DNA from: Ornithinimicrobium tianjinense
GTDB lineage: Bacteria; Actinomycetota; Actinomycetes; Actinomycetales; Dermatophilaceae
NCBI RefSeq assembly: GCF_014636495.1
Contig: NZ_BMEM01000004.1
Location: forward strand, 1-35,909
DNA: 35,909 nt
Direction of reading: 5' to 3'
Positions 2,892 through 31,000 of the stretch are shown one piece after another. The notes beneath the pieces were generated by a model, which saw only the letters and a program-made list of their open reading frames with translations, was not told the origin of the DNA and ran no database searches. The translations under genes and the position numbers were made by a program. Position 1 is the stretch's first letter. Each line of letters starts with the position of its first letter.

Positions 2892-3858
2892 CGGTGATGC
2901 CGATCTTGCCGACGACGTCACCGCGCTCCATCTTCTCCAGCGCCTCTCGAGCGTCGGAGAGCGCGAAGACGCTGTCCACCTGCGGGCGCAGCCCGGTGCG
3001 CGCGACGAACGAGCAGAGCTTGCTCAGTTCCTCGTGGGTGCCCATCGTGGAGCCGATCACACGCAGCTGCTTGAAGAAGATCTTGGTCAGCTCCGCCTTG
3101 GCAGGCGCGTCCCCGGAGGTCGCGCCGCAGATGACGATCGTGCCTCCCGGACGCAGGGCGTTGACCGAGTGCGACCAGGTGGCCGCGCCCACGCTCTCGA
3201 GCACCGCGTCGACCCGTTCGGGCAGCCGGGCACCGGGCTCGAACGCCCGGTCAGCACCCAGCTCCACGGCCCGCTCCCGCTTGAGTCCGTCCCGGCTGGT
3301 CACCCACACCCGCAGCCCGGCCGCGGCGCCGAGCTGGACCAGAGCGGTCGCGACTCCCCCGCCGGCGCCCTGCACCAGGACCGTGTCCCCCGGCGTCACC
3401 TGCGCGTTGCGGAACAGCATCCGGTATGCCGTGAGCCAGGCCGTCGACAGCGCGGCGGCCTCCACGGCGCTCAGGTGCTCGGGCTTGGGCACCCACGACC
3501 CCTCGGGCACCGTCACGTGCTCGGCGAGCGTGCCCTGGTGGAGCTCGGAGAGCAGCGACCGGCGGGGGTCGAGCGTGGTGTCCCCGGCCCAGCCCGGCGT
3601 GCCCGGCACCACCGGGTAGACCACCACCTCGCCCAGCTCGGGGTGTCGGGCCACCGCGTCACAGCCGAGGATCATCGGCAGCTGCTCGGCCCGCAGGCCC
3701 ACGCCCCGCAGCGACCAGAGGTCGTGGTGGTTCAGGCCGGTGGCCACGACCGGCAGCACGGCCCAGCCCGGGGCCGCCTCGGGCTCCGGCCGCTGATCGA
3801 CCTCGAGCGCGGTGAGCGGGTGGTCGGCGTCGAAGCGGGCGGCGTAGGCGGCGAGCAT
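2887..3858 (-). CDS. Zinc-independent medium-chain dehydrogenase/quinone oxidoreductase-like protein
   Basis: This 323-residue medium-chain dehydrogenase/reductase has an N-terminal GroES-like fold containing GLNHHDLW (41-48). A Rossmann domain follows, with the nucleotide-binding motif QGAGGGVATALVQ (163-175). The cluster of four structural-zinc cysteines seen in alcohol dehydrogenases is absent; only isolated Cys residues occur. This points to the quinone oxidoreductase/acyl-CoA-reductase side of the family, using NAD(P)H. Substrate is unknown. The gene starts 9 nt after truA, so they may be cotranscribed. A TAGGGT lies 6 nt before the ATG, which could be a leaderless -10, but it includes the truA stop codon TAG and may be chance. 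Confidence 0.85.
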   Translation of the reverse strand: MLAAYAARFDADHPLTALEVDQRPEPEAAPGWAVLPVVATGLNHHDLWSLRGVGLRAEQLPMILGCDAVARHPELGEVVVYPVVPGTPGWAGDTTLDPRRSLLSELHQGTLAEHVTVPEGSWVPKPEHLSAVEAAALSTAWLTAYRMLFRNAQVTPGDTVLVQGAGGGVATALVQLGAAAGLRVWVTSRDGLKRERAVELGADRAFEPGARLPERVDAVLESVGAATWSHSVNALRPGGTIVICGATSGDAPAKAELTKIFFKQLRVIGSTMGTHEELSKLCSFVARTGLRPQVDSVFALSDAREALEKMERGDVVGKIGITV

Positions 3859-3867
3859 GGACCGACC

Positions 3868-4728
3868 CTAGCCCTGCGCCTGCCCTGGCGGCTCCGCCGG
3901 GAGGACCCGGAGGGCGCGGGCGCCCGCCGCGCGCTCCGCGAGGGCGGTCTCCGTCTCCGGGTAGACGATCTCCTCCAGGCACAGCCCGTGCGGCGGCATC
4001 ACCTGCACCCCGGAGTCACGCACCCCCGCGAGCAGCACCGCCTCCGGCCAGTCGACGGCTCGCCTGCCCTCCCCCACCGGCACGACCCCGCCCACGAGCG
4101 CCCGCACCATGCTGTGGCAGAAGGCGTCGGCCTGCACGGTCCCGACGACGATGCCCTCGTCGTCCCGTTCCCACCGGTAGGCCAGCAGCGTGCGCACCGT
4201 GGTCGCACCCTCGCGCGGCTTGCAGAAGGCCGCGAAGTCGTGCAGCCCGACCAGCCTCGAGGCGGCCGCGTCCATCGCCGCTGCGTCGAGCGGTCTGCGC
4301 ACCACCACCGTGTCGTGCCGACGCAGCGGGTCGAGGCGCTCGGGGCGGTCGGCGAGCCGGTAGGTGTAGCGACGCCGCAGGGCCGAGAAACGCGCGTCGA
4401 AGCCGTCCGGCACCACCCTCGCGCTGCGCACGACGACGTCCGGCGGCAGGACGCCCCGCAGGCGCGTGACGAGCGCATCACCCGGCTCCCGGTCCGAGCG
4501 GCCCGGGACGGAACGCCATACCTCCTCGTCGACGTCCAGGTGAGCGACCGAACCGCGCGCGTGGACGCCGGCGTCGGTGCGACCCCCCACGGTCAAGGAC
4601 GGGGGCGGGGTGCGCAGCACCGTGGCCAGAGCCCGCTCCAGCTCGCCCTGCACGGTCCGCAGACCGGGCTGCCGGGCCCAGCCGGAGAAGTCGGTGCCGT
4701 CGTAGGCGAGGTCGATCCTGATGCGCAC
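3868..4728 (-). CDS. truA: tRNA pseudouridine(38-40) synthase TruA
   Basis: TruA converts uridines 38-40 of the tRNA anticodon stem-loop to pseudouridine. The protein has IRIDLAYDGTDFSGWARQPG at its N-terminus and the catalytic motif GGRTDAGVHARG with the nucleophilic Asp at about residue 52 of the 286-residue product. I chose the GTG at 4728, giving VRIRIDLAYDG, because family members begin right at this strand. The in-frame GTG at 4764 would add 12 unconserved residues and start inside the terminator hairpin of rplQ. Position after rplQ is the usual actinobacterial arrangement. The C-terminal proline/alanine-rich tail is not informative. Confidence 0.93.
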   Translation of the reverse strand: MRIRIDLAYDGTDFSGWARQPGLRTVQGELERALATVLRTPPPSLTVGGRTDAGVHARGSVAHLDVDEEVWRSVPGRSDREPGDALVTRLRGVLPPDVVVRSARVVPDGFDARFSALRRRYTYRLADRPERLDPLRRHDTVVVRRPLDAAAMDAAASRLVGLHDFAAFCKPREGATTVRTLLAYRWERDDEGIVVGTVQADAFCHSMVRALVGGVVPVGEGRRAVDWPEAVLLAGVRDSGVQVMPPHGLCLEEIVYPETETALAERAAGARALRVLPAEPPGQAQG

Positions 4729-27962: not shown

Positions 27963-28003
27963 TGGCGGTGCTCAGGTGGCCGGTCCGGGGACCGGCGTCA
28001 GCG

Positions 28004-31000
28004 TCAGAACCGCTCGTCGCCGATCGGCAGGTCGTCGAGGCGGACCGCCTCGCCCGAGCCCTGGCCGAAGGTGCCGGCGTAGTCGAAGTCGTCGTACACC
28101 GGGACGCTGTAGGCCGCGGCCTTGGCCTCCTCGGTCGGCTCGACCGTGAGGTTGCGGTAGCGGGTCAGACCCGTGCCGGCCGGGATCAGCTTGCCCAGGA
28201 TGACGTTCTCCTTCAGGCCGAGCAGCGGGTCGCTCTTGGCCTCCATGGCGGCCTCGGTGAGGACGCGCGTCGTCTCCTGGAAGGAGGCGGCGGAGAGCCA
28301 CGAGTCGGTCGCCAGCGAGGCCTTGGTGATGCCCATGAGCTCGGGACGGCCCGAGGCCGGGCGCCCGCCCTCGGAGACGACGCGGCGGTTCTCGGTCTCG
28401 AAGCGGCCGCGGTCGACGAGGGTGCCCGGGAGCAGGTCCGCGTCGCCGGCCTCGATGATCGTGATCCGGCGCAGCATCTGCCGCACGATGACCTCGATGT
28501 GCTTGTCGTGGATCGACACACCCTGCTGGCGGTAGACGCCCTGGACCTCGTCCACCAGGTGCTGCTGGGTGGCGCGGGGGCCGAGGATGCGCAGGACCTG
28601 CTTGGGGTCGATCGCACCGGAGACCAGCTGGGTGCCGACCTCGACGTGCTCGCCGTCCTTGACCAGCAGGCGGGAGCGCTTGCTCACCGGGTAGGCGTGC
28701 TCCTCCGAGCCGTCGTCCGGCGTGAGCAGGATGCGACGCGCCTTGTCGGTGTCCTCGATCTCGATGCGGCCGCTGGCCTCGGCGATCGGGGCGACCGCCT
28801 TGGGGGTGCGGGCCTCGAAGAGCTCGACGACACGCGGCAGACCCTGGGTGATGTCGTCACCGGCCACACCACCGGTGTGGAAGGTCCGCATCGTCAGCTG
28901 GGTGCCGGGCTCACCGATCGACTGGGCCGCGATGATGCCGACGGCCTCGCCGATGTCCACGAGCTTGCCGGTGGCCAGCGAGCGGCCGTAGCACTTGGCG
29001 CAGGTGCCGACCAGCGACTCGCAGGTCAGGACCGAGCGGACCTTGACCGACTCGATGCCCGCGGCGACCAGGCGGTCGATGACCACGTCGCCCAGGTCGA
29101 TGCCGGCCTCGGCCAGCACCTCGCCGTCCGCGGACACGACGTCCTCGGCCAGCGTCCGGGCGTAGACCGCGGTCTCGACGTCGTCGTGCTCACGCAGCGC
29201 GCCGGACTCGCCGCGGACGGCGATCGGCATCACGAAGCCACGGTCGGTGCCGCAGTCGTTCTCGCGGATGATGACGTCCTGCGACACGTCCACCAGACGA
29301 CGGGTCAGGTAGCCCGAGTCGGCGGTGCGCAGCGCGGTGTCGGCCAGACCCTTACGGGCACCGTGCGTCGAGATGAAGAACTCCAGGACCGAGAGGCCCT
29401 CGCGGAAGTTCGACTTGATCGGACGCGGGATGATCTCGCCCTTCGGGTTGGCCATCAGGCCACGCATACCGGCGATCTGCCGCAGCTGGAACCAGTTACC
29501 ACGAGCACCCGAGGTCACCATCCGGTAGATGGTGTTGTCCTTGGGCATCGAGGTCTCCAGCTCCTTGGCCACCTCGTTGGTCGCCTGGGTCCAGATCTCG
29601 ACAAGCTCCTGACGGCGCTCGTCGTCGGTGATCAGACCACGCTCGTACTGCTGCTGCACCTTGGCGGCCTTGGTCTCGTAGCCGGCCAGGATCTCGGACT
29701 TGCGGGCCGGGGTCTGGACGTCGGAGACGGCCACCGTGGTGCCGGAGCGGCTGGCCCAGTGGTAACCGGTGTCCTTGAGCGCGTCGAGGCTCGCGGCCAC
29801 CTGGACCTTGGTGTAGCGCTCGGCCAGGTCGTTGACGATCCCGGACAGACGCTTCTTCTCCACCACGTCGTTGACGTAGGGGTAGTTCACCGGCAGCGCG
29901 TCGTTGAAGATGGCGCGGCCCAGCGTGGTCTCCAGCTCGAAGATGTCGACGACGCCGTCCTCGGAGACGACCGCGTCCTCCGGCAGCTCGTGGCCCAGCG
30001 GGGCCGCGGTGCCGGTGATCCGCAGACGGATCGGGGACCCCAGCGCGATCTGGCCGGCGTCGAAGGCCATGCGGGCCTCCGCGACGGTCGAGAAGGCGCG
30101 CAGGTGGCGGTTGCCGTCCTCGTCCACCAGGTATGCCGTCTCCGGCTCCTTGGTGGCCTCGCTCGTCAGGTGGAACAGACCGATGATCATGTCCTGGGTG
30201 GGCATGGTCACCGGGCGACCGTCCGCCGGCTTGAGGATGTTGTTGCTGGACAGCATGAGGATGCGGGCCTCGGCCTGCGCCTCCGCGGACAGCGGCAGGT
30301 GCACGGCCATCTGGTCACCGTCGAAGTCGGCGTTGAAGGCGGTGCAGACCAGCGGGTGGATCTGGATCGCCTTGCCCTCGACCAGCTGGGGCTCGAAGGC
30401 CTGGATGCCGAGACGGTGCAGCGTGGGTGCACGGTTGAGCAGCACGGGGTGGTCGGTGATGACCTCCTCGAGGACGTCCCACACGACGCTGCGGCCACGC
30501 TCGACCATGCGCTTGGCCGACTTGATGTTCTGGGCGTGGTCGAGGTCGACCAGGCGCTTCATCACGAACGGCTTGAACAGCTCCAGCGCCATCTGCTTGG
30601 GCAGGCCGCACTGGTGGAGGCGCAGCTGCGGGCCGACGACGATGACCGAACGGCCGGAGTAGTCGACGCGCTTGCCGAGCAGGTTCTGACGGAACCGACC
30701 CTGCTTGCCCTTGAGCATGTCGGACAGCGACTTCAGCGGGCGGTTGCCGGGGCCGGTGACCGCGCGGCCACGACGGCCGTTGTCGAAGAGGCTGTCGACG
30801 GCCTCCTGCAGCATCCGCTTCTCGTTGTTGACGATGATCTCGGGAGCGCCGAGGTCCAGCAGCCGCTTGAGCCGGTTGTTGCGGTTGATGACGCGGCGGT
30901 AGAGGTCGTTGAGGTCCGAGGTCGCGAACCGGCCACCGTCGAGCTGCACCATCGGGCGCAGGTCCGGCGGGATGACGGGGACGCAGTCCAGGACCATGCC

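Follow-up and report, generated by a model that had tools for sequence, protein, structure and literature searches.

A putative DNA uptake signal sequence, with dialects, in the actinobacterial family Dermatophilaceae

The nine-base word GGTATGCCG (core GTATGCCG), highly iterated in Ornithinimicrobium tianjinense and in many members of its family, is probably a DNA uptake signal sequence. Its copy number, even division between strands, surplus of convergent pairs, occurrence in both genes and gaps, and dialects largely match the hallmarks of the USS and DUS of known transformable bacteria. These data are best read as a system of uptake sequences, with dialects, that arose independently in Actinomycetota.

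Copies in the window and in the genome

The window, i.e. the whole stretch of O. tianjinense DNA that was analysed (35,909 nt), contains 11 exact copies of GGTATGCCG (Table 1), compared with a mean of 0.09 and a largest count of 2 in 100 dinucleotide shuffles. All coordinates and strands listed in an earlier note on this DNA proved exact, and the observation that G follows every copy is borne out, each GGTATGCC of the window being followed by G. Eight of the 11 copies are located in gaps and three are coding (simple gene calls), again as described, while the window is 11.5% non-coding (binomial p 4e-6). The coding copy in rpoC is intact in L168 and altered in L165 and L166, and is therefore not fixed.

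Table 1 Copies of GGTATGCCG in the O. tianjinense window.
Feature	Position	Strand	Location
Copy	3423..3431	+	within zinc-binding dehydrogenase gene (2887-3858, -)
Copy	4801..4809	+	gap, tRNA pseudouridine synthase gene (3868-4728, -) / ORF (4818-5594, -)
Copy	9964..9972	+	22-base gap before peptidase M24 gene (9093-9962, -)
Copy	12056..12064	-	gap downstream of ribosomal protein L15 gene (12081-12560, -)
Copy	13486..13494	-	within ribosomal protein L18 gene (13433-13807, -)
Copy	14825..14833	+	gap upstream of ribosomal protein S8 gene (14382-14780, -)
Copy	22926..22934	-	gap downstream of elongation factor Tu gene (23020-24213, -)
Copy	26534..26542	-	gap downstream of ribosomal protein S7 gene (26558-27028, -)
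Left half of inverted pair	27932..27940	+	downstream of rpoC
Right half of inverted pair	27948..27956	-	downstream of rpoC
Copy	30130..30138	+	within rpoC (28004-31930, -)

Across the O. tianjinense genome the word occurs 1,258 times (625 forward, 633 reverse; about one copy per 2.6 kb), while a control, the same word read backwards, occurs five times (4 + 1 by strand), so that the earlier description of a genome-wide iterated motif was right. In a 436-kb sample (20 stretches of the genome plus the window) GGTATGCCG is the commonest 9-mer, and its 172 copies are far above the 5.2 expected under a third-order Markov model. Chance or base composition as the source of the copies is ruled out by the shuffles, the control word and the Markov expectation.

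Concentration between genes, also claimed previously, holds for this ribosomal-operon window, but the wider genome sample shows only an approximately two-fold bias. There, 128 of the 172 copies are coding, 41 are intergenic and 3 straddle a gene boundary (12% of sequence non-coding, p 1.5e-5), so most copies are inside genes; the coding share of copies is 74%, compared with 88% of the sequence. Over 12 sample sets the ratio of gap to gene density ranges from 0.8 to 5.9, and three of these show no higher density of the word in gaps (ratio <1), which counts against the uptake reading. Orientation relative to gene direction shows a mild bias (341 v 254).

Distribution in the family, dialects and a second word

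At least 100 copies of GGTATGCCG are present in 113 of 186 genomes of the GTDB family (Dermatophilaceae), with strand sums over these 113 of 40,812 forward and 40,724 reverse, while none of 362 genomes sampled from the rest of the order exceeds 61 copies. Taking both words together, the family comprises 113 rich, 19 second-word, 46 poor and 8 intermediate genomes. In the comparison with relatives proposed in the earlier note, 30 of the 31 congeners are rich; one, G009, has only 20 copies, and absence of the word from a single species therefore does occur. Word-poor species and genera are scattered through the family, and G009, G038 and G114 are each poor within rich genera.

The core GTATGCCG is mostly followed in O. 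tianjinense by T or C, then G. The flanks differ at the level of the genus; their forms, derived from 17-252 sites per genome, are G-core-TG (O. tianjinense), C-core-YC (genus g4), C-core-CG (g41), C-core-TG (g50) and G-core-CG (g43 and g47).

In two genera (g27 and g36) GGTATGCCG is replaced by a second word, CGAAGGGGG: all 19 genomes carry 797-1,939 copies of the latter and just 3-20 of the former, while the other 167 family genomes hold 11-80 copies of CGAAGGGGG. This word was reached through G082, one of seven word-poor genomes sampled for other words. No convincing replacement word was found in the six others (60-100 kb each), which counts against the uptake reading, and G153, G068, G184 and G113 yielded none. 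The same search found repeats in G120 and, in G114, a weaker word, palindromic in part and perhaps a product of codon usage.

Close pairs of copies

Among the 31 genomes of the genus, pairs within 30 bases are convergent in 107 cases (41 expected) and direct in 38 (83 expected), the chance ratio of convergent to direct being 1:2. Pooled samples contain 18 convergent, 8 divergent and 1 direct pair within 60 bases. Convergent close pairs are scarce in any one genome (0-7 in the 31), and the 7 found among the 1,258 copies of O. tianjinense, where chance gives about 3.7 (hand-worked), count against the uptake reading.

Competence genes

comEC was identified in 180 and T2SSE-type ATPases in 185 of the 186 family genomes and, being near-universal, these genes cannot split rich from poor genomes. 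In O. tianjinense comEA (SLBB and helix-hairpin-helix domains) adjoins comEC, and the genome carries what we take, from an ATPase match and gene order, to be a Tad/Flp-type locus. PilM was found in only 7 of the 186 genomes, O. tianjinense not among them, and the word could not be linked to classical type IV pili on this count. Tad-type loci are present in rich, poor and second-word genomes; in 19 such loci no gene separating the three kinds and no ComP-like receptor was found. A small flp-like gene was called in 11 of the 19 and the locus looks truncated in word-rich G011 and G022, by a gene caller that misses small genes.

In part of the family comEC is split by elements carrying a serine recombinase, a pattern weakly consistent with a role for transformation. 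The ComEC domain is uninterrupted in word-poor G038, G114 and G031 and comEC is interrupted in word-rich G021 and G030, and both observations count against the uptake reading. The ComEC match of word-poor G009 stops near a contig end; this break may be an assembly junction and was therefore not counted as evidence.

Competing readings of the word

Among the options offered in the earlier note, a site for uptake machinery fits best and a mobile repeat is unlikely, while its chief competitor is a site for methylation or for a nucleoid protein. In this rival reading, which we regard as rather unlikely, the word is recognised inside the cell by a DNA-binding protein (nucleoid organiser) or by an orphan DNA methyltransferase, and selection there maintains it at high copy. 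HIP1 provides a precedent of an iterated word linked to methyltransferases (PMC4390886, from the part of the article available). Regular spacing was not found in 151 intervals from the sampled stretches (CV 0.99, equal to random), which counts against the uptake reading; such near-random spacing, together with the lack of strand bias, would suit any chromosome-wide binding site, and no surface receptor was found. Against an intracellular site, the words differ by genus and are absent in G009, G038 and G114, suggesting a dispensable and changeable function, and the excess of convergent close pairs is not predicted. Nor is the word palindromic: GGTATGCCG is not self-complementary, and the sample contains 0 copies of GGTATACC, 16 of GGCATGCC and 180 of GGTATGCC, counts that rule out a palindromic HIP-like word.

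Imperfect copies bear on the same question from both sides. Relative to Markov expectation, the excess lies mainly in the perfect word in three of four sets, in favour of uptake, and one-mismatch forms show no excess in two sets (G164, 130 perfect and 66 one-mismatch copies, 90 of the latter expected; G141, 60 and 34, 44 expected) and a slight one in a third (the CGAAGGGGG set, 81 and 158, 135 expected). In raw counts perfect copies outnumber one-mismatch copies in G164 and G141, and the reverse, which counts against the uptake reading, applies in the CGAAGGGGG set and in O. tianjinense (252 perfect, 428 one-mismatch). At two positions of the core, one-mismatch copies in O. tianjinense are also above expectation (150 v 51; 113 v 75), again contrary to uptake, and a tolerated core position would suit an intracellular binding site.

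A transcription-level signal (terminator or anti-terminator) appears very improbable as the general function. The inverted pair downstream of rpoC folds into a hairpin of 18 bp with a 3-base loop (27925..27963, minus strand, coordinates by hand count from the fold; -44.8 kcal/mol, z -5.8) that is likely the rpoC terminator. Three Serinicoccus records and Ornithinimicrobium cerasi have the pair at this position too (that of L167 located from BLAST coordinates), and a scan of named genomes for the strict inverted pair identified six stretches, five from this group and one in a Clostridia MAG, the last taken as a chance match. The hairpin and the conservation of the pair in relatives favour a transcriptional role, but 128 of the 172 sampled copies lie inside genes and few are paired. 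Use in terminators can be secondary, as paired uptake signals of Neisseria also associate with terminators.

A signal of the Chi or KOPS kind, serving recombination or segregation, would account for the octamer-like length, the high copy number and the presence of copies both within and between genes. Sites of this type point along the direction of replication, but 180 copies are on the leading and 172 on the lagging strand (p 0.71; local GC skew with the two words pooled, scoring restricted to 352 copies in clearly skewed stretches), and since no replication-strand bias was detected we give this reading very little credence. Just as hard to credit is a mobile short repeat spreading by copying (REP/MITE-like): high copy number, many perfect copies and inverted pairs would fit, but conservation spans only about 11 bases, similarity ending approximately two bases 3′ of the word with flanks near background, and conserved genes, rpoC and the L18 gene among them, contain copies within their reading frames.

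A model for uptake and its implications

If GGTATGCCG is an uptake signal, free DNA bearing the word would be bound more readily by a receptor at the cell surface that belongs to the competence apparatus. As in Micrococcus luteus, a member of the same order, this apparatus probably comprises a Tad/Flp pilus, ComEA and ComEC. Related DNA would then be preferentially imported and recombined into the chromosome, and the resulting drive would both keep and multiply copies of the word. A change in the receptor would lead to a change in the word, giving rise to dialects, while copies would decay where specificity was lost. We infer uptake as such, the receptor and the drive, as well as loss (instead of original absence) of the word in word-poor species.

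On balance we favour, with somewhat less assurance than the uptake function itself, a third self-DNA recognition system for transformation, of independent origin and the first in Actinomycetota and in monoderms, with two unrelated cores (GTATGCCG and CGAAGGGGG), about five flank dialects and a new type of receptor. The receptor of such a system would probably be a Tad/Flp-pilus or ComEA-linked protein, not a classical type IV minor pilin. None of the literature matches listed (open literature) reported an uptake word from this group of Actinomycetota, and the exact words returned only unrelated titles among the matches listed. A third occurrence, in a phylum that is both distant and devoid of an outer membrane, would imply that the trait evolves repeatedly. 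It would also make a natural experiment of the rich, poor and differently worded species over 53 genera, open another way to the receptor, and predict which actinobacteria are transformable and with which DNA.

Comparison with known systems

The published systems are compared here as described in the available parts of the articles cited. Flp/Tad-dependent transformation of M. luteus involves comEA, comEC and Tad/Flp-type genes, as are also present here, while sequence-specific uptake is not mentioned in the available part of that source (PMC6370729). HIP1 of cyanobacteria is likewise an octamer-scale, highly iterated word whose function is uncertain, but is a palindrome linked to methyltransferases (PMC4390886), whereas the actinobacterial word is non-palindromic and varies by genus.

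According to the available part of a 2025 paper (PMC12616744), Neisseriaceae and Pasteurellaceae are the only families with known uptake signal sequences. Hallmarks of USS and DUS are a lack of orientation bias, some close opposite pairs, and a preference for non-coding DNA combined with many coding copies (PMC1626085). In Haemophilus influenzae 65% of copies lie in ORFs compared with approximately 86% coding sequence, or 59% compared with 84% on recount (PMC2346458). Spacing of both USS and DUS is somewhat more regular than random (PMC1626085), but we do not regard this as defining for uptake sequences.

The USS of Pasteurellaceae (Hin and Apl types) are, as here, 9-base words of two types per family present in hundreds to more than 1,000 copies, e.g. 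742 copies of ACAAGCGGT in Actinobacillus pleuropneumoniae (PMC1626085). The Hin and Apl types share GCGG (PMC12616744), whereas GTATGCCG and CGAAGGGGG have no obvious common core, and USS have AT-rich flanks (PMC1626085), unlike the O. tianjinense word. The DUS of Neisseriaceae differs from the word described here in its unrelated sequence and host phylum; in Dermatophilaceae inverted pairs are few, PilM is rare across the family and absent from O. tianjinense, and no ComP-like receptor was found in the loci searched. The two systems nevertheless have in common a short word in thousands of copies, both genic and intergenic, with terminator-associated inverted pairs, dialects around a conserved core, and some family members with no obvious word (PMC3630211).

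Abundance and arrangement of the word

All 11 copies of the nine-letter word GGTATGCCG listed in an earlier note lie where it placed them and are the only ones in the window; its expectation of under one copy by chance agrees with dinucleotide shuffles of the window (0.09), and eight are indeed intergenic, the other three being genic. Gene calls came from a simple ORF scorer made for this analysis, not an annotation, and nine window genes were scanned, including those for L15, L18, S8, S7, elongation factor Tu and RpoC. Across the O. tianjinense genome (3.31 Mb in 12 contigs) the word occurs 625 times on the forward and 633 times on the reverse strand, compared with 4 and 1 for a control, GGTATGCCG read backwards. 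It is the most frequent 9-mer of a 436-kb sample (window plus 20 stretches; 172 copies vs 5.2 expected under a third-order Markov model). The next two bases are usually YG (Y being T or C), and the rest of the flanks is close to background. Sampled copies are genic (128), in gaps (41) or at gene edges (3), non-coding DNA making up 12% of the sample, and spacing within the stretches is random (CV 0.99). A second short repeat in this genome, GGACAGGCG, often adjoined by TTAGTGCC, is clustered, often with a spacing of 22 or ~32 bases (Table).

Distribution, dialects and a second word

GGTATGCCG is present in 193 to 1,323 copies in 30/31 genomes of the genus, the exception being G009 (20 copies). 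Within the family, 113/186 genomes are word-rich (at least 100 copies), 8 have 50–99 and 65 fewer than 50; 32/53 genera have at least one word-rich member, and three include both word-rich and word-poor species. Counting was confined to the same order, where the maximum outside the family was 61, in an 8.3-Mb genome (362 sampled genomes from 19 families).

Ten word-rich genomes, sampled at 40–496 kb each, share the core GTATGCCG, most dense in G141 and G164 (~100 per 100 kb), with variable flanks (Table); single-genome flank profiles are approximate, since eight of the ten gave only 17–60 sites. In word-poor G082 (genus g27) another word, CGAAGGGGG, is over-represented (35 copies vs 2.1 expected in 100 kb), in both orientations and with some inverted pairs in gaps. 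It reaches 797 to 1,939 copies in all genomes of g27 (16/16) and g36 (3/3), compared with 11–80 in the remaining 167. As these 19 genomes carry only 3–20 copies of GGTATGCCG and the others few of CGAAGGGGG, the two words are never both high (0/186). No clear replacement was seen in samples of six further word-poor genomes. In word-poor G114 (L088–L092), ACGCCGTAC/GTACGGCGT is over-used (22 vs 1.6 expected in 100 kb), perhaps reflecting codon usage or another weak word.

Orientation, mismatches and inverted pairs

In 12 pooled sample sets covering both words, leading (180) and lagging (172) strands were about equally represented (p 0.71), as assigned by local GC skew and scored only where this was clear. 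Copies ran with the host gene more often than against it (341 vs 254, p 4e-4), a gene-direction bias that part of PMC2346458 also describes for known uptake words. One-mismatch copies numbered 66 (90 expected) vs 130 perfect in G164, 34 (44 expected) vs 60 in G141, 158 (135 expected) vs 81 in the CGAAGGGGG sets, and 428 (302 expected) vs 252 in O. tianjinense, with a surplus at two core positions; by these counts two sets show a strong consensus clearly, as expected of uptake words, and the picture is mixed in the other two.

Among the 31 genus genomes, convergent pairs no more than 30 bases apart are in excess (107 vs 41 expected from strand densities) and direct pairs are depleted (38 vs 83). 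The window's pair 3′ of rpoC forms a hairpin with 18 bp in its stem (−44.8 kcal/mol, z −5.8), and its position is kept in 4/4 Serinicoccus (Micrococcales, Ornithinimicrobiaceae) and O. cerasi loci, which are 85–91% identical to the window in DNA sequence (the L167 pair being placed from BLAST coordinates only). The copy within rpoC is changed in L165 and L166 and unchanged in L168. Among named genomes, a strict inverted pair was found in three Serinicoccus records, Ornithinimicrobium cerasi and Knoellia locipacati; a match in one Clostridia MAG was taken as chance.

Positions and flanks of the features described
Feature	Genome or locus	Position or flanks
Inverted pair 3′ of rpoC	window	27932–27956
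GGTATGCCG, four in tandem, period 10 bases	G019	C1:61712–61750
Presumed ftsZ	L145	4971
GGACAGGCG cluster	L031	83–212
GGACAGGCG cluster	L043	4184–5782
GGACAGGCG cluster	L044	15952–16040
GGACAGGCG cluster	L045	6215–6636
GGACAGGCG cluster	L047	13721–14681
GGACAGGCG cluster	L049	12858–13234
GTATGCCG flanks	O. tianjinense	5′ G, 3′ TG
GTATGCCG flanks	g4	5′ C, 3′ YC
GTATGCCG flanks	g41	5′ C, 3′ CG
GTATGCCG flanks	g50	5′ C, 3′ TG
GTATGCCG flanks	g43, g47	5′ G, 3′ CG
GTATGCCG flanks	g14, g17, g30	less clear
Interrupted comEC	L194 (G098)	
Interrupted comEC	L195 (G030)	
Interrupted comEC	L197 (G021)	
Interrupted comEC	L200 (G097)	
Interrupted comEC	L203 (G159)	
Interrupted comEC	L196 (G166)	

Competence genes

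ComEC was identified in 180/186 family genomes, T2SSE-type ATPases in 185 and PilM in 7; in O. tianjinense, comEA (SLBB and helix-hairpin-helix domains) adjoins comEC. A locus that we take to be Tad/Flp-type, from its ATPase and gene order, was read in 19 genomes, word-rich, word-poor and second-word alike, and is apparently truncated in two word-rich ones. None of these genes distinguishes word-rich from word-poor genomes, and thus no receptor was found among them. In stretch L145, the presumed ftsZ product is 96–97% identical to those of congeners G009, G017 and G007, compared with only 36–68% for three shared flanking genes on one side (a Tad-type cluster lies on the other), a contrast in sequence that suggests recombination or transfer.

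In four genomes (G021, G030, G159, G098) comEC is split into parts ~28–44 kb apart; the shorter one scores under the family cut-off in G098. For G097 and G166, either the larger part alone was found or the far part lies on a separate contig. The break falls at the same place (~residue 290), and a serine recombinase gene lies at the junction in all four loci scanned with Pfam (G098, G030, G021, G097). These look like prophages or integrative elements with comEC as attachment site, resembling, in location and recombinase, Streptococcus pyogenes prophage phi1207.3, which is inserted in comEC and encodes serine recombinases according to part of PMC4260502. Inactivation of transformation genes by mobile elements is known in other systems (PMC11472951, in part); by analogy, the interruptions give weak support for a role of transformation in this family.

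Comparison with uptake-sequence systems

The main alternative is that the word is an intracellular binding site or a methylation site. A putative uptake-sequence system of independent origin is the best explanation; according to part of a 2025 paper (PMC12616744), words of this type are known from just two families, Neisseriaceae and Pasteurellaceae. True membership of this kind is at candidate level and would depend on an uptake test. The regular spacing of the Pasteurellaceae USS and Neisseriaceae DUS is not seen and the mismatch pattern is mixed. In its arrangement the word otherwise shows most features given as typical of these systems in portions of PMC1626085 and PMC3630211, and a resemblance to them in how it would work is well supported.
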